From a virus: a DNA stretch of 20,537 nucleotides. The DNA lies in the IMG/VR virus record IMGVR_UViG_3300004369_000835, positions 1 through 20,537 of that record. One strand, written 5' to 3'. Shown in pieces: positions 4,070-13,504 of the stretch (the stretch's first letter is position 1; every line of letters begins with the position of its first letter). The position numbers and the translations under genes were made by a program. The notes beneath the pieces were generated by a model that saw nothing but the letters and a program-made list of their open reading frames with translations, searched no databases and had not been told where the DNA came from.

Positions 4070-6343
4070 ATGGCGAGCAGTGCCGTTAAAGGTGAATTTC
4101 AGCAAATCCTCTTAGCTGCTAAGGAACGTCGAGGGGACTTATCTATAGACACGATGATTGTGTCTTCACACCTTGCCCAGATGCGTACATTCATGCTTCG
4201 TAGAGGCATTGAATTTTATTCGGAGCAAGATTCCTACGGTAAACGTAGAGATTTCATGGCACGTGTAGTCGAAGAGAACATGCTGGAAATGAAATACGAC
4301 AGTATTGTCGATTATTTCTTGTGTGATGGTCAAGGTCTGTTTTACTTCAGACCTTCTGGAGAGAGTTATCAGATTTTATTCTTCCCACAAGACAGTTATC
4401 GTGCATATCGTAACCAAATTGGCGAACTTGAGTCTGTCGTACTTGTCTATTCCTTTAATGTCCAGCAAACCCATGGATTAGCTGACAACTATCCATCTGC
4501 CAACGGAAAGTCAGGCAAAAAGAAGTGGATTCAGTTAAAGGTCTTCAAAGATCGAATTGAGCAGACTATCTCAGACGAAAAAATTGAGTTTGCCAATCAG
4601 ATGGGTGCTATGCCTATGGGCAACCCTGGCCAAACTGAGGTATTGACTAATAGCCTTGGTTTTATTCCTGCAGTTGAAGTGTTTAACCACATGGACTGCA
4701 CTGGAGAAGCTACGGGCAATGGTGAATTCGATTGGTTGGCACACCAAATTCTGTATCACGACGAATTAGTGAGAAACATCCGTAAGAACATGAAGTTCTT
4801 CGGTAACCCCACTCTTATTTCAAGCAGACCTAAGCATGACATCGTTGATAGTGGTGACGAGAATTCATTCCGACCTACCATTAGTTCTCAGGCAGGTTTT
4901 GCTCCGATTGGAGGATCACCTAGGGCTAGTACTCGTGTGAGTCAGCCCTTTGGTGGTGCATCACTTGATGGTCAGATCAAGGTTCCCCGCGTGATCGCAA
5001 ACCTTGAGCCGACTGACCGTGTTGGATACATGACACCTGACAGCGTGTCTGGTGACCAAAACTTGTACGTCAAACAGTACCGATCTGAAATTCGTTTGGC
5101 ATTAGGTGGTGTTGATGACATTGATATCAATACAGCCGCTACTGCATATGAGATTAAAACTCTGTATGGACGTGTTGCAGCTACTGCTGAGAAAAAAGCA
5201 AGGTCACTGTTCACGTATGGACTTTGTCGTTTATTTGCAATGATGATTTACGCTGAAGAGCGTAATTTCAGAGAATCATTTGCGGTTGCGATTGAACTTG
5301 AGGAGCCAATGTTGCCTCTCCCCGAAGAATATCAAGACGAGGAGATGTTTAAAAAAGCTGCTGAGAAATATAAGAAGGACTATCGCAAATTCATTGAGAA
5401 ACGTGATACCGAGATGCGTGCTAGACTAGATTCAGGTGAGATACCTCCTGGTGTCACTGGCCTCATCCCAGACGGCTCTACAAAAGTCAGCTGGAGATGG
5501 ATGGGAGAAGTCTTTGAAGAAAGCACTGAAGACATTCTGAATAACAGTATTGTCGTCCGCAACCTTCAAGAATTAGGAGTTGATTCTATTGAAGCTCTTA
5601 AATATCTCTTCCCCGGAAAAACTGACGAAGAAAGGGCCGCAATGCTAAGCGGATTTCCGTTCAGGATGGTCCAGCAAACCCAAAGCAGTATCAACAGTTT
5701 TATCAGTCTGCTCGGTAGTTTCTATCAATTACCGCACCCACAAATGCCAGACATGCCTCTGGCATCTGACCCGAACCTTGATATGACAGGGTTCTTATAT
5801 CGATCTTTAGAATTCTTACGTAAGGAGTTAAGTTACAGTGGAAGTTACAAACCAGGCGATTCAAGCAGCACCCCAGACGAGCTCAGCAGCGCCGACCAAT
5901 TACGTGCCCAGCGCGGCCAGTCAGTACGCGACGAGCGCATACCAAACCTCCCAGGTATCACCGGCCCAATCGGTGACACCGCAGGCACCGGTTTACCAGG
6001 CACCGGTTTACCAGGCACCGGCCCCGGCCCAGCAGGCTTCGGCACCTCAGGCCAATCCATGGCAGCAGGCGTTTCAGGCTCTGAGCGCAAGCCTGAATAC
6101 GTCCAACCCCTCCCAGGCCCAGGTTTCACCCTCGGCTTACCAAACGACGCCAACTCCGCAGGCAACTACACAACCCAGCTGGGCTTCAATGGCGCAATCG
6201 GTAGCCCCGACTTCGCAGCCCCAAGTTTCAACCCAGGCGTTTTCGGAAGCAGAGGTCAGCCAGCTGGTGCAGCAGGCGGCTCAGTACGGAGCAAGCCAGG
6301 CTCAAGATCAGTATCTAAGCGGAATCAGCAACGAAAGTCTTGA
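4070..6343 (+). CDS. Portal protein with a long overprinted C-terminal tail
   Basis: 757 residues, long for a portal. Portal proteins form the dodecameric ring at the capsid vertex through which the terminase drives DNA. Evidence is moderate: position straight after the packaging genes and before a scaffold-like gene, plus a core (residues 1 to about 590) with the mixed alpha/beta and charged-helix composition of portals. That core includes SIVDYFLCDGQGLFYFRPS followed by YRAYRNQIGELESVVLVYSF near residues 85-130 and long helices at about 420-460. The tail (about 590-757) is Gly/Pro/Ser/Thr-rich and basic at the end; it coincides exactly with the part shared with the next gene in another frame. 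The tail is therefore probably disordered and shaped by the overlapping gene. The ATG follows an AAAGAG tract at a normal distance. Confidence 0.75.
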   Translation: MASSAVKGEFQQILLAAKERRGDLSIDTMIVSSHLAQMRTFMLRRGIEFYSEQDSYGKRRDFMARVVEENMLEMKYDSIVDYFLCDGQGLFYFRPSGESYQILFFPQDSYRAYRNQIGELESVVLVYSFNVQQTHGLADNYPSANGKSGKKKWIQLKVFKDRIEQTISDEKIEFANQMGAMPMGNPGQTEVLTNSLGFIPAVEVFNHMDCTGEATGNGEFDWLAHQILYHDELVRNIRKNMKFFGNPTLISSRPKHDIVDSGDENSFRPTISSQAGFAPIGGSPRASTRVSQPFGGASLDGQIKVPRVIANLEPTDRVGYMTPDSVSGDQNLYVKQYRSEIRLALGGVDDIDINTAATAYEIKTLYGRVAATAEKKARSLFTYGLCRLFAMMIYAEERNFRESFAVAIELEEPMLPLPEEYQDEEMFKKAAEKYKKDYRKFIEKRDTEMRARLDSGEIPPGVTGLIPDGSTKVSWRWMGEVFEESTEDILNNSIVVRNLQELGVDSIEALKYLFPGKTDEERAAMLSGFPFRMVQQTQSSINSFISLLGSFYQLPHPQMPDMPLASDPNLDMTGFLYRSLEFLRKELSYSGSYKPGDSSSTPDELSSADQLRAQRGQSVRDERIPNLPGITGPIGDTAGTGLPGTGLPGTGPGPAGFGTSGQSMAAGVSGSERKPEYVQPLPGPGFTLGLPNDANSAGNYTTQLGFNGAIGSPDFAAPSFNPGVFGSRGQPAGAAGGSVRSKPGSRSVSKRNQQRKS
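5822..5827 (+). promoter_or_regulatory. Ribosome binding site inside the portal gene
   Basis: AAGGAG, one of the best Shine-Dalgarno matches in the window, lies 10 bases before GTG 5838. An in-frame TAA at 5829-5831 prevents any earlier start of the overlapping gene, so this site fixes its start. Confidence 0.75.
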
Positions 6344-6839
6344 GGTACTTGAGCACTTTGGTGCTGAAGCCCCAGCTCTCCTGAACACCTATGCATGTGC
6401 CGTTGAGGACGCTCTGATTGAGCAGGTTCACCGTGGCAATGATGTTCTGACCAGCCTCCAGGCTTCTCACGAGCAGAACGGTGCTATGAACCTCATGCTC
6501 ACCAACCCCGACGTGCTTGCTGACTATGTCAACGAGTTCTTCGGTCCCAACGGTCCCTACCCCACCGAGACTGCTGAGGAGACTGCTATCCGTCAGCAGC
6601 ACGAAGCACGTGCTCAGTTCGAAGCTGAAATTGAAGCTCAAGAGCAGGGTCAAGTTCCCCCGAACTTCCAGCGTCCTCAAATGAACATGCCTACACCTGG
6701 TCGCCAACAGAACGTTGCTAACGACTTCTGGGCCTCTTTCAGCCAGATGATGGACAACAATCCTGAGCGAGCTTGGCAGTACCTCTCCCAGGCTCCTCAA
6801 GGAGCTCTGCAAACCAAAGCCCTGATCGCTGATACGTGA
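5838..6839 (+). CDS. Scaffold-like protein starting within the portal gene
   Basis: 333 residues from GTG 5838, preceded by AAGGAG. The first ~168 residues are read from DNA that also encodes the portal tail in another frame; they are rich in Gln, Ala, Ser and Pro and include three APVYQ-type units from the 15-bp repeat. The non-overlapping part (about 169-333) is helical and acidic with AEEEA-like stretches and ends in aromatic and Met-containing helices (DFWASFSQMMDNNPERAWQYL). A Gln/Ala/Glu-rich helical protein of this length between portal and capsid is typical of scaffolding proteins, which nucleate procapsid assembly and leave before or during packaging. The 3' half uses C-ending codons like the capsid genes, suggesting high expression. 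Function is inferred from composition and place. No protease motif is seen. Confidence 0.65.
   Translation: MEVTNQAIQAAPQTSSAAPTNYVPSAASQYATSAYQTSQVSPAQSVTPQAPVYQAPVYQAPAPAQQASAPQANPWQQAFQALSASLNTSNPSQAQVSPSAYQTTPTPQATTQPSWASMAQSVAPTSQPQVSTQAFSEAEVSQLVQQAAQYGASQAQDQYLSGISNESLEVLEHFGAEAPALLNTYACAVEDALIEQVHRGNDVLTSLQASHEQNGAMNLMLTNPDVLADYVNEFFGPNGPYPTETAEETAIRQQHEARAQFEAEIEAQEQGQVPPNFQRPQMNMPTPGRQQNVANDFWASFSQMMDNNPERAWQYLSQAPQGALQTKALIADT
5982..6026 (+). repeat. 15-bp tandem repeat coding in two frames
   Basis: A 15-base unit is present exactly at 5982-5996 and 5997-6011, with a third, partly changed copy at 6012-6026. Because 15 is divisible by three, it gives in-frame repeats in both overlapping genes: GTGLP-type in the portal tail and APVYQ-type in the scaffold-like protein. 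Confidence 0.9.
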
Positions 6840-7213
6840 TGGGTTACAACTCTGGCGCTAGAGCAAGAGAACTAGGCATCGGCTCTTCGGGGTCGTTGCC
6901 TTCTAATCCTGATCTGGATTATGTGTTCCACGGCAAAATCACTCCTCAAATTCTTGAGAAGGTTTTAGGTCGGAAGCCAACGTCAGAGGACATTGAAATT
7001 GCTATTCAGCTTGCATCTAGACCTGAAAACAAGAATCTAGATATTTTTGTTAAAGAGCTTTTAGGTGTTGGGGGCGACTATGCACTCAAAAATAGAGCCC
7101 CTGAAACCAACACTCAAAGAATGGCTGGTCAAGTACTTGCTGGGTCTGGAGGCCTCGCTGCACTGTTAGCAGCAATCGATTATGCAGATGGGCCAGAGCA
7201 AGGTCGTATTTAA
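6839..7213 (+). CDS. Small protein of unknown function, coupled to scaffold-like gene
   Basis: 124 residues from ATG 6839, which overlaps the scaffold stop by one base (TGATG); a GTG one codon earlier is possible. The N-terminus is Gly/Ser-rich. Residues about 30-80 form charged helices (ITPQILEKVLGRKPTSEDIEIAIQLA). A short Gly/Ala/Leu-rich hydrophobic helix occurs near the C-terminus (VLAGSGGLAALLAAI), too short and polar-flanked to call a clear membrane anchor. The coupling to the scaffold-like gene suggests a head-assembly role, but no family is recognised. Confidence 0.7.
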   Translation: MGYNSGARARELGIGSSGSLPSNPDLDYVFHGKITPQILEKVLGRKPTSEDIEIAIQLASRPENKNLDIFVKELLGVGGDYALKNRAPETNTQRMAGQVLAGSGGLAALLAAIDYADGPEQGRI

Positions 7214-7224
7214 TTTGCATACAA

Positions 7225-7232
7225 TATAAATA
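7225..7232 (+). promoter_or_regulatory. T4-late-like promoter element TATAAATA
   Basis: The second exact TATAAATA in an intergenic gap, 19 bases before the ATG at 7252. A start point about 6-8 bases downstream would leave a leader of roughly 13 bases. It marks a likely new transcription unit for the small genes before the sigma factor. Confidence 0.45.
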
Positions 7233-7251
7233 ACAACGAAAGCTCGTAGAA

Positions 7252-7650
7252 ATGATTAATCCGACTTTAGCTCAGGCTCATTTAAATAAAGGCGAAGTAG
7301 GTATGGTTCAAAAGACGCCTCTGGTTAGCAACCTGATGGATGCGGGTACTGCTAGCAAAGTTGCTCTGAATCCTCAGCAGCAAATTAGTGCTCAAAAGCT
7401 TATGACCAATGTTGGGCAAAATGCCGACACTGCAGTTATTGGGCAAAGAGCTAAAGAAGAAGGTGCTATACGTACTGCTCAGCTTCAGCAGTCCCAAGCA
7501 CAGCATGATGCTTCTCAAGCTATTTCTACGATGATTTATGCACAGCATGGTGCTAACTCTGCAACCGCCTCATTTGCACAACCTGGAGAAGCTGAACGAA
7601 GAGGTGTCAGTGTGATGCAGCAATTAGCCATTAAAAACTCAATGGCCTGA
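7252..7650 (+). CDS. Gln/Ala-rich helical protein of unknown function
   Basis: 132 residues from ATG 7252, with only a weak purine tract upstream. The protein is rich in Gln, Ala, Ser and Met; residues about 40-100 form a long amphipathic helix (units such as AQLQQSQAQHDASQA). No signal peptide, no cysteine and no enzyme motif is seen. Composition resembles small internal virion or scaffold-associated proteins, but that is only a guess. It has its own TATAAATA element upstream. Confidence 0.65.
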   Translation: MINPTLAQAHLNKGEVGMVQKTPLVSNLMDAGTASKVALNPQQQISAQKLMTNVGQNADTAVIGQRAKEEGAIRTAQLQQSQAQHDASQAISTMIYAQHGANSATASFAQPGEAERRGVSVMQQLAIKNSMA

Positions 7651-7695
7651 TATTCGTAATTGATAGAATTAATAGATAATACTTAGTTCATCATT

Positions 7696-7986
7696 GTGAA
7701 TATTAGAAAGGCTGGTGATTGCGCTAATGATCCTGAAATCTTTCAAACCATTTGGAAGCATTTAAAGACTGATGGCGTTCCTGATCAGGCTGCTAATCAA
7801 ATGACAGCAGAAATGCTGACTCATGGTGAAGACTTTGAAAGTAGTGTTGAGGCATATCAGTCTGCCTATCAAAACTTTAGAGAGCGTGGATATAACGAAC
7901 ATGCTGCACAAGCAATGGCGGTTGAATCACTTGAGGGCAAAGAAAAGCCCACTGAAAGTATTAGATTCGCTCGCATTTATAGTTGA
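7696..7986 (+). CDS. Small acidic helical protein of unknown function
   Basis: 96 residues. The start is GTG 7696; no ATG occurs near the beginning and no good ribosome site is present, so the start is uncertain. The sequence is helical and acidic with regular alanines and aromatic residues (EAYQSAYQNFRERGYNEHAAQAMAVESL). Its first codons (NIRKAG) lie in the TAGAAAGGCTGG element that also occurs near 2998 and, with one change, at 3098. It ends 47 bases before the sigma-factor ATG. Function unknown. Confidence 0.6.
   Translation: MNIRKAGDCANDPEIFQTIWKHLKTDGVPDQAANQMTAEMLTHGEDFESSVEAYQSAYQNFRERGYNEHAAQAMAVESLEGKEKPTESIRFARIYS
7704..7715 (+). repeat. Dispersed 12-bp element TAGAAAGGCTGG
   Basis: Identical to 2998-3009 and one base different from 3098-3109. 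All three lie at or just after a potential gene start and encode (S/I)R(K/M)AG in the same phase. Confidence 0.5.
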
Positions 7987-8033
7987 TAATTTAAACATTC
8001 ACTGCTAGAATTAAGTATCAGTGAAGATTGAAT

Positions 8034-8975
8034 ATGGCACAAGTAAAGAGTTCTGGAGATTCTGTTCGCTCCTATTTGCGCGACATTGGAAGAATCCCAC
8101 TTCTTGAGCATGATGAAGAGATTCTGCTTGGACGCAAAGTTCAACGGTTGATGGAAATTAAAGCGTGTGAGGATCTGGCAAATACTGTTACCAAAGAGGA
8201 TCTGGCAGGCGTACTAGGCATGACTGTCAAAGATCTAAAACGTGAGATTCGAGATGGTGAAAAGGCTAAAGACAAAATGGTGACAGCAAACTTGCGTCTC
8301 GTTGTGTCAGTAGCCAAAAAATATACCAAACGAAATATGGATCTACTTGATATTATTCAAGAAGGAACTATTGGGCTTGTAAGAGGTGTCGAAAAGTTTA
8401 ATCCAGGCCGTGGCTATAAGTTTAGTACTTATGCTTATTGGTGGATTCGGCAAGGGATTACTAGGGCGATCGCTGAAAAATCGAGGGCGATTCGGCTACC
8501 AATTCATGTTACAGAGAACCTCAACAAACTTAAGAAAGCCCAGCGTGAGCTAAGTCAGCTGAATGGTGAAATTCCAAACGTTTTTGAGTTGTCCGAGTAC
8601 CTGAACCTTAGTGTTGATGAAATCAAAGACCTCATGTGTAAGGCTCGTCAGCCAACATCTCTAGAGATCAAGATCGGTGAAAACAGAGATACAGCACTAA
8701 TCGACCTGCTTGAGGATAAAACCCAACTACCTGACTTGCTTCTGGAACAGCAGTTCATTAAAGAAGACATTCGAGATCTGATTGATGATCTGCCTGAAAT
8801 GCAAGCCGCTGTTATCAGTATGCGCTACGGCATCGGTGATGAGATGCTTGAACCAATGTCAATGACAGCAATTGGTCAGATCTTGAACATGAGCCGAGAC
8901 CGTGTAAGGACTCTCGAACACAAAGCACTTAAAGCTCTCAGGGAGAAATCCGAATGTGTAAGTGATTATGTTTAA
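8034..8975 (+). CDS. RNA polymerase sigma factor, cyanobacterial group-2 type
   Basis: 313 residues from ATG 8034 (a TTG two codons earlier is less likely). Sigma-70 regions appear in order. Region 1.2 is VRSYLRDIGRIPLLEHDEE from residue 11. Region 2 is at about 85-148, with NLRLVVSVAKKYTKR, DLLDIIQEGTIGL, the core-binding and -10 recognition part, and KFSTYAYWWIRQGITRAI. Region 3 follows with IRLPIHVTE. Region 4.2 has a helix-turn-helix (AIGQILNMSRDRVRTLEHKAL) from about 277. The RIPLL.HDEE signature, the length and the absent region 1.1 match the primary-like, non-essential group-2 sigma factors of cyanobacteria. It should bind host RNA polymerase and redirect it to particular promoters. 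Capture from a host is the simplest origin. Being set among virion genes is unusual. Confidence 0.92.
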   Translation: MAQVKSSGDSVRSYLRDIGRIPLLEHDEEILLGRKVQRLMEIKACEDLANTVTKEDLAGVLGMTVKDLKREIRDGEKAKDKMVTANLRLVVSVAKKYTKRNMDLLDIIQEGTIGLVRGVEKFNPGRGYKFSTYAYWWIRQGITRAIAEKSRAIRLPIHVTENLNKLKKAQRELSQLNGEIPNVFELSEYLNLSVDEIKDLMCKARQPTSLEIKIGENRDTALIDLLEDKTQLPDLLLEQQFIKEDIRDLIDDLPEMQAAVISMRYGIGDEMLEPMSMTAIGQILNMSRDRVRTLEHKALKALREKSECVSDYV

Positions 8976-9705: not shown

Positions 9706-10209
9706 TTAGGTAGTCTTCTTAGAAAGTTTGACTGTAGGAATAGGTGATGTCTTGGTATTTACAATTGGTGTGGTCTTTGTAGATTTAGCTGGAGCAGCTT
9801 TTTGTGCTACAGGTGCTTGAGGCTTCTCAGCAGATCCTTGTGGCTTAACAGTCATGACCTTGCCACCACTCATCGTTGGAAGGACATAGTGCTCAATCAG
9901 CCCAAGATCACGGGTAAACAGAGCAGCACGGGTCACACTTTTAGCACCATAGAAAGTAAAGTTCAGCTTCCCATCGTGGTCAATACGTAGATGCGTGCCA
10001 TTGGTTGAAGCGACTGCAAGTTTCAGAATTTCACCGTTAGCAGTTACATCAAAAATAGTGCAGTCAACATATTGAACACCATTGGTTGCATGCCACCATT
10101 CCTTCACTTTATGAGTATCACCACCACGCTTGGGCCGGGTCAAAAGAAGCTCTTTACCAGTATGCTTGCTTACGCCTTTTACACCTGTAAGAATAAGACT
10201 ATCAGCCAT
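9706..10209 (-). CDS. Basic-tailed protein of unknown function (endonuclease partner)
   Basis: 167 residues on the minus strand, starting with ATG at 10209 and overlapping the stop of the HNH gene by 8 bases, so the two are translated together. Residues 1-115 look globular and mixed (LLLTRPKRGGDTHKVKEWW, NFTFYGAKSVTRAALF). The last ~50 residues are Lys/Ala/Pro/Thr-rich and basic without acidic residues after the linker, like a nucleic-acid-binding tail. No family is recognised. It is one of only two minus-strand genes here and converges with the 9005 gene. Confidence 0.65.
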   Translation of the reverse strand: MADSLILTGVKGVSKHTGKELLLTRPKRGGDTHKVKEWWHATNGVQYVDCTIFDVTANGEILKLAVASTNGTHLRIDHDGKLNFTFYGAKSVTRAALFTRDLGLIEHYVLPTMSGGKVMTVKPQGSAEKPQAPVAQKAAPAKSTKTTPIVNTKTSPIPTVKLSKKTT

Positions 10210-10579
10210 TTTTGCGAATACAACTTTCTTCTATTTTAGTCCATTTAAGATTGCCAACGATGTTGTTATCCTTTTTACCATCAACATGACGAACTCTGCT
10301 ACATGACTTTGTTCGACCTGGCAGTGATAGCGGGGGTTTCAAAAATGCGAGCGCAACAAGTGCATGGACAGCTGCTGTAATTGTTTTCTTTCTTCCAATC
10401 CTTTGAGTGAGATTAACTTGCATGTAGCCATTCTTGTTCCTACGCTGCTTCAATATTTTCTCAGTCTTGCCCTTCGTACTTTTGATTAGACCTTTGCTAT
10501 TAATATAGTATTCAATACAGCACTCATAGCCCGGTAAAGTGTGGATCGGAGTCCATTCATTGTCGTCGATAAATTCCAT
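10202..10579 (-). CDS. HNH homing-type endonuclease with NUMOD4-like N-terminus
   Basis: 125 residues from ATG at 10579; a TTG five codons upstream is less likely. The N-terminus (EWTPIHTLPGYECCIEYYIN, then SKGLIKS) matches the NUMOD4 DNA-binding motif (W..I.GYE..Y.I...G.I.S). The C-terminal half has VHALVALAFL, then VRHVDGKKDNNIVGNLKW, the usual HNH arrangement (V-H-LVA-AF ... N/R-H-DG-K-NN-EN-W), with the two His and the Asn kept. Such enzymes cut a cognate allele and copy their own gene into it. It lies antiparallel to the capsid operon, immediately upstream of the capsid gene, an expected place for a free-standing homing gene. No self-splicing intron is evident around it. Confidence 0.82.
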   Translation of the reverse strand: MEFIDDNEWTPIHTLPGYECCIEYYINSKGLIKSTKGKTEKILKQRRNKNGYMQVNLTQRIGRKKTITAAVHALVALAFLKPPLSLPGRTKSCSRVRHVDGKKDNNIVGNLKWTKIEESCIRKNG

Positions 10580-10647
10580 CGTTATTAACCACAAAATATT
10601 GGGGTATATATCTCAAAGTATAGCAATAACTACTAATATCGTTATAT

Positions 10648-10700: not shown

Positions 10701-11849
10701 ATGTGGATTGATAATGATTTTCCGAAGCTTCTTGGTGCAGAACTTTATCGTCCCCACCCGGCTTACATCATTGAGATGGCAGTAGAGCCCGTGGTGGTTC
10801 ACGATTTCTCCAAGCAACCCGGTCAAACTGTTCAGTTAGATCGCTATCGCTTCTGGGGTAAGCCTGGCACTAAGGAGTCCCGTGAGCGGACTGCTGATCA
10901 AACCCTTGGATCCGCCTCCGCACGCAACATCGTGAAGGACAAAGTGCTGGTTACTCTCCGTGAGTACACCGGTCCTGCTGATTCCCGCGATTCCTCCCAA
11001 CCTTCCACCTTCAAGGTGGCTCGTGAAACTCTGATCACTGCTCAGCGTCTGCTGCTGGATACCGGCAACCTGAACGTGTTCCATCAGAGCATCGGTTCTT
11101 TGACCCTGCTCGACGACTATCGCCGCTGGCGCGACCGGGTGTTCGCTAACGAACTCCTCAAAGCCGAAGCTGCTGGTCAAGCAAGCAAGGACCAAGGTGG
11201 TTACTACCTGCCCGGCGGTAAGGCCAAGGGCGGCTCTGGTGGCACCCTCGGCGTTACCTACGCCGCTGGCGAATCCGCCAAGTTCGATGTGAAGACCGAC
11301 CTCCTCGAAGTCGTCAAGGACATGCGTAAGCGCAACGTCCCGACCTTCGCTGATGGCTACTACCGCTGCATCGTGGATCCGACCGCGATGATGCACCTGC
11401 GCCAGAACGCTGACTTCCGCGAGATCGCTCGCTATCCGGGCAACGGCATGATTAACCCCATGCAGCCCAACCAGGCTCCCAACGCCAACTTCTACCAAGG
11501 CATGGGTCCTGCTTACGGCCAAGCTGGCTTCGTTGCTGGCCAACCCGTTATGCCGACTGGCTTCCTCTTTGAGGGTGTCCGTTGGTTCGAGTCCACCAAC
11601 CTGCCCGAAACCTCTTACAACCTCGTTGTGACTGATGAAAGCAGCTCCGCCGCTGACTACACGGCTTCTCAGCTGATCTTCTTCGGCCCTCAGGCTGTTG
11701 GCGTGGGTATTGGTGGTAACAACGCTCAGATTCTGCTGAACAACAACGACGACTTCAGCCGTTTCATCATCATGATCTGGAGCTTGTTCGCCGGTTTTGA
11801 AACGCTTAATCGCGATTTCATTACGGTTGGTTACTCTTTCGTTTATTGA
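10701..11849 (+). CDS. Major capsid protein (probable)
   Basis: 382 residues, within the range of tailed-phage capsid proteins. The call rests on four things: it follows portal and scaffold-like genes; codons are strongly biased to C- and G-ending synonyms unlike the AT-rich genes around it, as expected for the most abundant phage protein; it has a clear GGAG; and it is followed by one co-transcribed gene and then a strong terminator. Regions visible are an N-arm with DFSKQPGQTVQLDRYRFWG, a long spine-like helical part (about residues 108-165), a Gly/Lys-rich loop (GGKAKGGSGG near 173-182), and a C-terminal beta-rich part. HK97 fold is assumed from family knowledge, not shown. It does not resemble T4 gp23 as I know it. 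Confidence 0.78.
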   Translation: MWIDNDFPKLLGAELYRPHPAYIIEMAVEPVVVHDFSKQPGQTVQLDRYRFWGKPGTKESRERTADQTLGSASARNIVKDKVLVTLREYTGPADSRDSSQPSTFKVARETLITAQRLLLDTGNLNVFHQSIGSLTLLDDYRRWRDRVFANELLKAEAAGQASKDQGGYYLPGGKAKGGSGGTLGVTYAAGESAKFDVKTDLLEVVKDMRKRNVPTFADGYYRCIVDPTAMMHLRQNADFREIARYPGNGMINPMQPNQAPNANFYQGMGPAYGQAGFVAGQPVMPTGFLFEGVRWFESTNLPETSYNLVVTDESSSAADYTASQLIFFGPQAVGVGIGGNNAQILLNNNDDFSRFIIMIWSLFAGFETLNRDFITVGYSFVY

Positions 11850-11865: not shown

Positions 11866-12507
11866 ATGTCCGTAATTTTTCCCGGTAACTATGTTTCTCA
11901 CCTGAACGCATATCGCGAACAGGGTGTTGAAGCTCTCCCTGGTGTCGAGTTCTACCGCATCGTCGGTGCGCTGGTCCTGGATCCTGACAACGCTGGCACT
12001 CTGTCTAGCGGTTCCCTGTCGGCTGGCACCTACAACTTGAAGGTTCTGTCCCCTGACCTGCGTCAGGATGACAAGCCCCGTACCGATAAGAACTTCGTGA
12101 TCCCCAAGGATTCCGTTGTATATCGCACCGCTATTTCCGCTCCTGGTGTGAAAGCAGCTGCTTCTGGTAACACCATCAAGATTGCTGCTCTTGGCAGTAA
12201 CGCCCCTGGTGACACCGGTAGTGAAGTGACCCTGACCGCTGGTTCCGACCTGTTCTTCCCTGCGGCTGGTGCAATTTCTTCCATGCTGGGTGTCCTGAAT
12301 GGCACTGCTGTTAGCACCTCTGCTGACACTGCAGTCCAGGTCGTCACCTCTGCATCCTTCACCGCTGAGCAGAAACCCTCTGCTGGCGCTGAGCGTAAGA
12401 GCCCTTCCGCCATCCTGGTTGAAGTCTGCTACTACCGTGGAGCTTCTGCTCCTGACATTGACGACGCTCACATTCCTTATGGAATCGAAGCTGGTCAAGG
12501 CACCTGA
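11866..12507 (+). CDS. Abundant small structural protein (decoration or tail candidate)
   Basis: 213 residues, 16 bases after the capsid gene and sharing its C-ending codon bias, so it is probably made in large amounts. The sequence is rich in Ala, Ser, Gly, Thr and Val with alternating beta strands (TYNLKVLSPDL, KDSVVYRTAI, EVTLTAGSDLFFPAAGAI, SAILVEVCYYRG). No helix-rich segment, signal peptide or catalytic motif is visible. A head decoration/cement protein or a major tail protein would fit this place and composition; I cannot separate these. It is the last gene before the terminator at 12525. Confidence 0.7.
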   Translation: MSVIFPGNYVSHLNAYREQGVEALPGVEFYRIVGALVLDPDNAGTLSSGSLSAGTYNLKVLSPDLRQDDKPRTDKNFVIPKDSVVYRTAISAPGVKAAASGNTIKIAALGSNAPGDTGSEVTLTAGSDLFFPAAGAISSMLGVLNGTAVSTSADTAVQVVTSASFTAEQKPSAGAERKSPSAILVEVCYYRGASAPDIDDAHIPYGIEAGQGT

Positions 12508-12524
12508 TTTATACAATCAGCATC

Positions 12525-12553
12525 AAGAGCGTCTCTTCGGGGGCGCTTTTTTT
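12525..12553 (+). terminator. Intrinsic terminator of the capsid operon
   Basis: An eight-base-pair stem (AGCGTCTC with GGGGCGCT, two G-U pairs) closes a TTCG tetraloop at 12528-12547 and runs into seven T residues. The C(UUCG)G loop is unusually stable. It begins 18 bases after the stop of the second capsid-operon gene. Confidence 0.9.
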
Positions 12554-12558
12554 GTGCC

Positions 12559-12564
12559 TATAAT
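12559..12564 (+). promoter_or_regulatory. -10-like TATAAT after the terminator
   Basis: A perfect TATAAT lies 6 bases after the terminator T run and 23 bases before ATG 12588. The -35 position would fall in the terminator stem and shows no good match to TTGACA. Plausible restart of transcription for the following genes. Confidence 0.45.
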
Positions 12565-12587
12565 AAGATTAGGTATACCCCAAAGAT

Positions 12588-13022
12588 ATGTCCGACCACA
12601 AATTATTTCAAGACACCAAAACCGGTAAGTTGGTGGAATTTATTTCTCAGCACGATAAAGAATTCGCAATGGTTAAAGACGCTTCAGGTGGCGTCACTTA
12701 TATGATGTTGGATCAGCTTGTTCCATATGATCCTCAGAAGGGACGAATGGCAAAGATCGCTCCTGTAGAACAGGAAGCTCCTGAAGAGCAAATCCCTCAG
12801 ACTGTTGTGCCGATTGAAGATACTCGTTTGAATTTAAATGCTGCACCTGCCGAGCAAATTGCTAAGCGACTTCCCGGTGTTGGTTTTGCCACAGCTAAGA
12901 AGATTGTTGAGCTACGTATGTCATTGAGTGGTGAACGGTTTGCCAACCTTAAACAGTTGGAAAATATTCCCCGCGTCAACTGGGATCAATTGATTGAAGA
13001 AGACTTGATCTTTATTAGTTAA
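12588..13022 (+). CDS. Small protein with ComEA-like helix-hairpin-helix domain
   Basis: 144 residues from ATG 12588; no strong ribosome site. The N-terminal ~60 residues are a small beta-rich part (KTGKLVEFISQHDKEFAMVKD). An acidic Glu/Pro linker leads to a C-terminal domain at about 80-144 that reads LNLNAAPAEQIAKRLPGVG, FATAKKIVELRMS and FANLKQLENIPRVNWDQL. This matches the double helix-hairpin-helix of ComEA and related proteins (LN.N.A...L..LPGIG...A..I...R...F..L..L..V), which bind DNA backbone non-specifically. Its place among head and tail genes suggests a role at the DNA-filled head or portal end. No signal peptide, unlike ComEA itself. Confidence 0.72.
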   Translation: MSDHKLFQDTKTGKLVEFISQHDKEFAMVKDASGGVTYMMLDQLVPYDPQKGRMAKIAPVEQEAPEEQIPQTVVPIEDTRLNLNAAPAEQIAKRLPGVGFATAKKIVELRMSLSGERFANLKQLENIPRVNWDQLIEEDLIFIS

Positions 13023-13051
13023 ACTAGTGATATCAAAGTAAAAGTGTAGTA

Positions 13052-13504
13052 ATGGCTATTAGTATTGAAGAAGCGTTACTAGCGAAAGCGGCGCAAGACG
13101 AACAGAACCGTATGGGTCTTGGCACTGCTACAGCCCTTGGTGCTGGTTTTGGTGCATTGACTGGAGCTACCGCTGGTGCAGTTCCTCATGCTGCTGGCCT
13201 GCAGATCAACAAGTTGAAGGATCGGTTGGCAGCAGGTCAAGGTCTAGTCCCAGCCCCCAATACAGGAATGAGAGGCGTACGTAACGCAGTACGTCCTGGT
13301 ATGAGATTCGCTGGCGGTTTGGTTGGAGCAATCCTTGGTGGTGGACTGGGTGCCGGAGTCCGACAGGCAACCATGCAGAACTCCCCTGCAGCCACACTTC
13401 TGGCAAAAATCCAGACTGGTCAAGAGCTGACACCAGTAGAAATTCAAATGCTTGAGAACGAACTGGCTACTACTTACAGCAACATCACTAGAGGAGTTGC
13501 CTGA
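13052..13504 (+). CDS. Glycine-zipper hydrophobic virion-type protein
   Basis: 150 residues from ATG 13052. Two Gly/Ala-rich hydrophobic segments, about residues 22-50 (LGTATALGAGFGALTGATAG) and 84-104 (RFAGGLVGAILGGGLGAGVR), carry small-residue spacing typical of glycine zippers, which pack in or through membranes. The remainder is helical and charged. In phages such proteins can be internal virion proteins ejected with DNA to cross the host envelope, or holin-like; the location among virion genes favours the former. The stop overlaps the next ATG by one base (TGATG). Confidence 0.7.
   Translation: MAISIEEALLAKAAQDEQNRMGLGTATALGAGFGALTGATAGAVPHAAGLQINKLKDRLAAGQGLVPAPNTGMRGVRNAVRPGMRFAGGLVGAILGGGLGAGVRQATMQNSPAATLLAKIQTGQELTPVEIQMLENELATTYSNITRGVA

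Follow-up and report, generated by a model that had tools for sequence, protein, structure and literature searches.

Organization of the head-gene locus

The window analyzed here, a 20,537-nt stretch of viral DNA, carries two open reading frames on its plus strand, at positions 4070-6343 and 5838-6839, which have 506 nt in common but are read in different frames. According to the open reading frame list, the upstream gene, encoding a putative portal protein of 757 aa, extends from the ATG at 4070 to the TGA at 6341-6343, and the downstream gene, encoding a scaffold-like protein of 333 aa, extends from the GTG at 5838 to the TGA at 6837-6839. Each scaffold codon is composed of positions 2 and 3 of a portal codon and position 1 of the next one. 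A Shine-Dalgarno sequence, AAGGAG (5822-5827), lies on the same strand within portal Lys-Glu codons, 10 nt from the GTG, and an in-frame TAA (5829-5831) lies shortly before the scaffold start. These coordinates, frames and start signals, described in an earlier note on this DNA, were all reproduced on the window. The dual-frame stretch (5838-6343, plus strand) is defined both by its open frames and by purifying selection in both of them, as detailed below.

The portal protein consists of a folded part (residues 1-589) and a low-complexity Gly/Pro/Ser/Ala tail (residues 590-757) with a basic patch at its end. This basic C-terminus, RSKPGSRSVSKRNQQRKS, is encoded on the plus strand at 6284-6340, by the DNA that also encodes scaffold residues ~149-167. 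The scaffold-like protein has a disordered N-terminal half rich in Gln, Ala, Ser and Pro, a helix with the motif NPWQxAFxxL (residues 73-87) and an all-helical acidic C-terminal half. The shared part also contains a 15-bp tandem duplication (5986-6015 on the plus strand, register approximate) which is in phase for both genes, as had been noticed earlier: the unit caccggtttaccagg reads TGLPG in the portal and VYQAP in the scaffold. The second copy is absent in close relatives, whose overlaps are 491 nt long. The duplication is recent and lengthened both proteins simultaneously, by five residues each. The GC content is 0.58-0.66 over most of 5838-6343, against ~0.43 upstream and 0.53-0.57 downstream; the shared part had been described as GC-richer than both flanks, which is clear on the upstream side and modest on the downstream side.

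The portal gene is located near the genes for the terminase large subunit (TerL, 1448-2986) and the major capsid protein (10701-11849), as expected for a portal, and several genes intervene between the scaffold-like gene and the major capsid gene. One of them (8028-8975) encodes a sigma factor of the RpoD family, of cyanobacterial type, that scored above the cut-off of TIGR02997 (Sig70-cyanoRpoD) and could direct late transcription. Another, on the minus strand at 10202-10594, is an antisense insertion just upstream of the capsid gene and encodes a NUMOD4-motif protein, probably a piece of a homing endonuclease.

The upstream gene product matched PHROG 20475, annotated as "virion structural protein" (4e-185), while matches of its homologues to the portal PHROGs 64 and 104 were weak (E 0.0017-0.25). 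A sequence search against solved structures returned no match for either the portal or the scaffold-like protein. Structures were predicted for sequences taken from the window and from the scanned loci. In a fold search with the portal model, portal proteins made up the entire set of 28 PDB matches with E<=0.001 (T7, P-SCSP1u, 80alpha, phiCD508 and others); since the model is poor (pLDDT 50, low TM-scores), the match rests on the Foldseek E-values and on the consistency of the hits. The portal assignment, proposed earlier from the sequence, is thus supported by structure prediction. Residues 622-757 have a pLDDT<50, and the tail is predicted to be disordered.

Both frames are conserved and under purifying selection

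Scans of viral and genome collections retrieved relatives belonging to three clades, marine-A (which includes the window), the S-EIV1 clade and marine-B, about 50-55% identical to one another in the portal core. Some contigs were retrieved more than once, so the number of distinct overlap sequences, 176, is the fair count. Both frames are open in all 216 loci spanning both genes, with an overlap of 446-638 nt and the same +1 phase throughout. Within a single clade, the overlap length differs by up to 120 nt and the phase is always retained. The third sense frame is open in no locus. Frame conservation in related phages had been proposed as a check on dual coding, with close homologues lacking the tail as the observation that would speak against it; such homologues are excluded among these spanning loci. 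Two apparent exceptions (L102 and L197) proved to be contig ends, the only early portal stop (in L102) lying 9 bases from the end. An antisense ORF at 5845-6165 was discarded: it is unconserved, and the antisense frame is open in just 1 of 74 loci. The marine-B contigs (L164, L165, L168 and L173-L216), some of which had been binned into archaeal or bacterial MAGs, retain the overlap.

Openness in one sequence is weak evidence, because a G/P/S/A-rich frame and a Q/A/P-rich frame both avoid stops. When synonymous portal codons were reshuffled with the protein fixed, the scaffold frame remained open in 0.2-16% of trials, and single-sequence openness was therefore rejected as proof of dual coding. 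Its recurrence in 216 of 216 loci is beyond chance, and the 176 concordant sequences rule out a sequencing error or frameshift.

The effect of selection was then read from pairs of sequences 85-90% identical in the portal core, with divergence tallied per portal codon position. At positions 1, 2 and 3, divergence was 0.044, 0.013 and 0.325 in the core, and 0.065, 0.022 and 0.055 in the overlap of the same pairs. At the overlap border, divergence at portal third positions thus drops from 0.33 to 0.055: the portal gene loses its synonymous freedom where its third positions are also the second positions of scaffold codons. In a sliding profile, the period of divergence switches through the overlap and is scaffold-like beyond 6343.

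Changes were also classed by their effect in both frames (OLGenie logic, own script, uncorrected proportions), with bootstrap intervals over codons. For the portal frame, pNN/pSN in the overlap was 0.20-0.61 in the three clades; the control, a phantom portal frame read in DNA encoding the scaffold alone (marine-A), gave 1.23-1.41. For the scaffold frame, pNN/pNS was 0.14-0.50 in the three clades, and the corresponding control, with a phantom scaffold frame read in the portal core, gave 0.70-0.82. Point estimates are far apart from the controls in every class; as sequence pairs are non-independent, the weight of this comparison rests on its replication in three clades. This dual-frame test, a counterpart of the dN/dS check suggested earlier, shows purifying selection on the portal frame as well as on the scaffold frame in each of the three clades.

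The portal tail carries additional marks of selection. The mean net charge of the last 20 portal residues is +6.4 to +8.0 in the three clades, compared with +2.4 expected for the same residues if the scaffold frame alone mattered, and the basic end is therefore a selected feature of the portal. PxPG and the basic end recur in portal tails across clades. In the other frame, the scaffold-like protein is conserved in all relatives, and its NPWQxAFxxL helix lies inside the overlap.

The scaffold start site is conserved as well. The Shine-Dalgarno sequence is formed by the portal codons AAG and GAG, which are 100% fixed in the 84 distinct sequences of marine-A and the 58 of the S-EIV1 clade; the synonymous AAA and GAA are never used there, while codons slightly upstream vary. 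An in-frame stop lies 3-6 nt ahead of the scaffold start in nearly all relatives, which speaks against ribosomes reaching this frame by an upstream frameshift. In marine-B, the ATG or GTG start is kept and the preceding stop mostly kept, with no strong Shine-Dalgarno sequence before the start. In the loci inspected, no start convincingly backed by a Shine-Dalgarno sequence was found downstream of the portal stop.

These data bear on three explanations in which only one layer of information matters. If the portal functionally ended near residue 590, the tail would be tolerated as passive read-through of a scaffold gene. The tail is indeed low in complexity and predicted to be disordered, and its G/P/S/A/T fraction (0.57) is near the 0.48 given by scaffold codons alone. 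The portal-frame ratios, far below their control, speak against this, as do the basic C-terminus, conserved beyond expectation, and the recurrence of PxPG and the basic end between clades; moreover, with the scaffold protein alone kept, the portal frame averages 8.3 stops and is open in 0.03% of draws. We regard passive read-through as very unlikely. The converse, that the portal frame alone matters and the scaffold-like protein begins after the portal stop, corresponds to the GenBank annotation of phage S-EIV1, and accidental openness has some backing in the shuffles, up to 16% of which leave the other frame open. It is hardly credible given the scaffold-frame ratios, the NPWQxAF motif conserved within the overlap, the frozen AAGGAG, the GTG or ATG start kept, and the start-site search past the portal stop. 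Constraint from the nucleic acid itself, through a packaging site, a promoter or an RNA structure, would account for the high GC content and the low overall nucleotide divergence of the shared part, but it would not explain why the three-base divergence period fits the scaffold frame on top of the portal constraint, or why the phase survives length differences of up to 120 nt between members of one clade. No Rfam match was found either, and this explanation too has next to no credibility in our view.

Nature of the second protein and proposed mechanism

With a pI of 4.15, the scaffold-like protein is acidic, and its AlphaFold model, of poor confidence (pLDDT 55), contains helices only. No known scaffold was matched in comparisons with PHROGs, Pfam, NCBIfam, PDB, T7 gp9 and P-SSP7 gp9, and a fold search with the model gave no match. 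Scaffolding proteins are diverse, so missing homology does not exclude a scaffolding function. An acidic, mainly helical or disordered protein encoded between portal and capsid genes has the characteristics expected of a scaffold. The second gene product is therefore probably a scaffolding protein, an assignment based on position, acidity and helical/disordered prediction and not on homology; the label given in the earlier note stands on the former grounds and found no backing on the latter.

Dual coding could also be real with a second protein that is no scaffold, being instead a minor component of the head or an internal protein of the virion. The absence of scaffold homology in any library or profile comparison would fit, as would the several genes that separate it from the major capsid gene in the window. 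P-SSP7 likewise has unrelated genes between its scaffold and capsid genes, and in S-EIV1 only one small gene lies between the second gene and the major capsid gene. Together with a protein that is acidic (pI 4.1), helical, Q/A-rich and, like the T7 and P-SSP7 scaffolds, encoded immediately downstream of the portal, this makes a minor head protein unlikely.

We therefore consider it likely that the overlap, in which two head genes share one strand with a +1 shift, is genuine and old, and that the locus operates as follows. From a single late mRNA, ribosomes on the portal gene would run through to 6343, while others would initiate independently at the internal GTG 5838, by means of the AAGGAG embedded in the last structured codons of the portal. 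The 506 shared nucleotides would thereby encode both the flexible, basic-ended portal tail and the disordered, acidic N-terminal half of the scaffold-like protein, and dual coding would be tolerated because both sharing segments are disordered. In established portal architecture, portal C-termini face the capsid lumen, and the capsid interior is the site of the acidic scaffold and later of the DNA. The basic tail would for this reason meet scaffold or DNA, and most likely contacts acidic scaffold or packaged DNA during procapsid assembly. The overlap had also been thought to fix a stoichiometric link between portal and scaffold. This was not borne out: ribosomes translating the portal gene would, if anything, pass over the scaffold start site. 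A more ambitious version, which we rate as rather unlikely, holds that in this ancient overprint the basic portal tail binds the acidic scaffold made from the same bases, that portal-vertex recruitment and scaffold co-evolve, and that portal translation throttles scaffold initiation.

Origin of the overlap and comparison with known systems

The relative age of the two frames was addressed with a single outgroup, the Acaryochloris phage A-HIS1 (FN436268), and with extant sequences that are co-adapted. A-HIS1 ORF063 (460 aa) is a distant homologue of the portal family (hhalign 95.5%, PHROG 20475 in common) without a tail, followed by an unrelated gene with a 4-nt overlap. It is the only tail-less homologue found; no relatives of this portal were found in viral contigs, and a profile search of A-HIS1 found no scaffold homologue. 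Aligned by eye on a common motif, the A-HIS1 portal ends ~60 residues before the overlap start. The proposal that the extra portal tail is exactly the shared part consequently holds for the low-complexity segment, but not for the point at which this shorter portal stops. Between its portal and capsid genes, A-HIS1 carries a charged, coiled-coil-like gene (7798-8442; L172, FN436268.1) that resembles a conventional scaffold, and its product has no similarity to the scaffold-like protein of the window.

The composition of the two frames is asymmetric. The Q/A/S/P/T fraction of the scaffold is 0.69, against 0.34 expected from the portal frame, and the G/P/S/A/T fraction of the portal is 0.57, against 0.48 expected from the scaffold frame. 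The scaffold composition is thus no by-product of the portal frame, and that of the portal comes closer to being a by-product of the scaffold frame. This asymmetry and the tail-less A-HIS1 portal hint at a portal that grew into a scaffold gene already present, a direction that is weakly favoured from these sequence comparisons. Counting against it, a stop-free portal frame (0.03%) is rarer by chance than a stop-free scaffold frame (6%), and codon usage points to neither frame as older. Extension of one protein by overprinting the other, as suggested earlier, is thus plausible, with its direction split between the tail-less outgroup and indecisive codon usage.

The same protein pair is encoded in the same phase by the Synechococcus phage isolate S-EIV1 (KJ410740), with a portal core 49% identical, an overlap of 554 nt and AAAGGAG followed by an ATG start. 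The deposited annotation misses the overlap, the second gene being placed after the portal stop and given 133 aa instead of 325. In the same record (L081, KJ410740.1), the capsid frame is open at 12317-13474 and matches the window capsid protein; in the deposited annotation, a minus-strand ORF (12248-13009) covers the beginning of this gene, and the capsid protein is reduced to its last 156 aa. The S-EIV1 terminase large subunit (5544-8084, 846 aa) contains an intein of ~330 aa (Pfam Intein_splicing, TIGR01445, TIGR01443), which the window terminase (512 aa) lacks.

In T7 (genes 8-9-10) and P-SSP7 (gp8-gp9-gp10), the scaffold directly follows the portal and precedes the capsid, and unrelated genes may intervene. 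T7 genes 8 and 9 are 99 nt apart and P-SSP7 gp8 and gp9 overlap by 1 nt, whereas the window pair shares 506 nt; the scaffold-like protein has no sequence similarity to gp9 of either phage. In lambda, the scaffold Nu3 is made from an internal start within another head gene, the protease gene C, in the same frame; the window pair uses two different frames, and the gene containing the scaffold start is that of the portal. A survey of virus genomes gave a median length of 14 nt (IQR 8-26) for same-strand +1 overlaps (PMC8903798), compared with 446-638 nt in the present loci, where both overlapping genes are large head genes. Overprinted gene pairs are already known as a kind. No prior report of an out-of-frame portal-scaffold overlap was found in the literature searched, which did not include the S-EIV1 genome paper, and the pairing thus appears to be unreported.

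Long out-of-frame overlaps usually go with small genomes. The complete S-EIV1 genome is 79 kb, and the overlap is formed by two large head genes in an arrangement fixed throughout three diverged clades. With 176 distinct sequences, it provides a well-sampled natural system of two disordered protein segments sharing DNA. It also allows the annotation of this widespread cyanophage lineage to be corrected, the second gene being truncated in S-EIV1, and offers a concrete prediction of how portal and scaffold may meet during head assembly.
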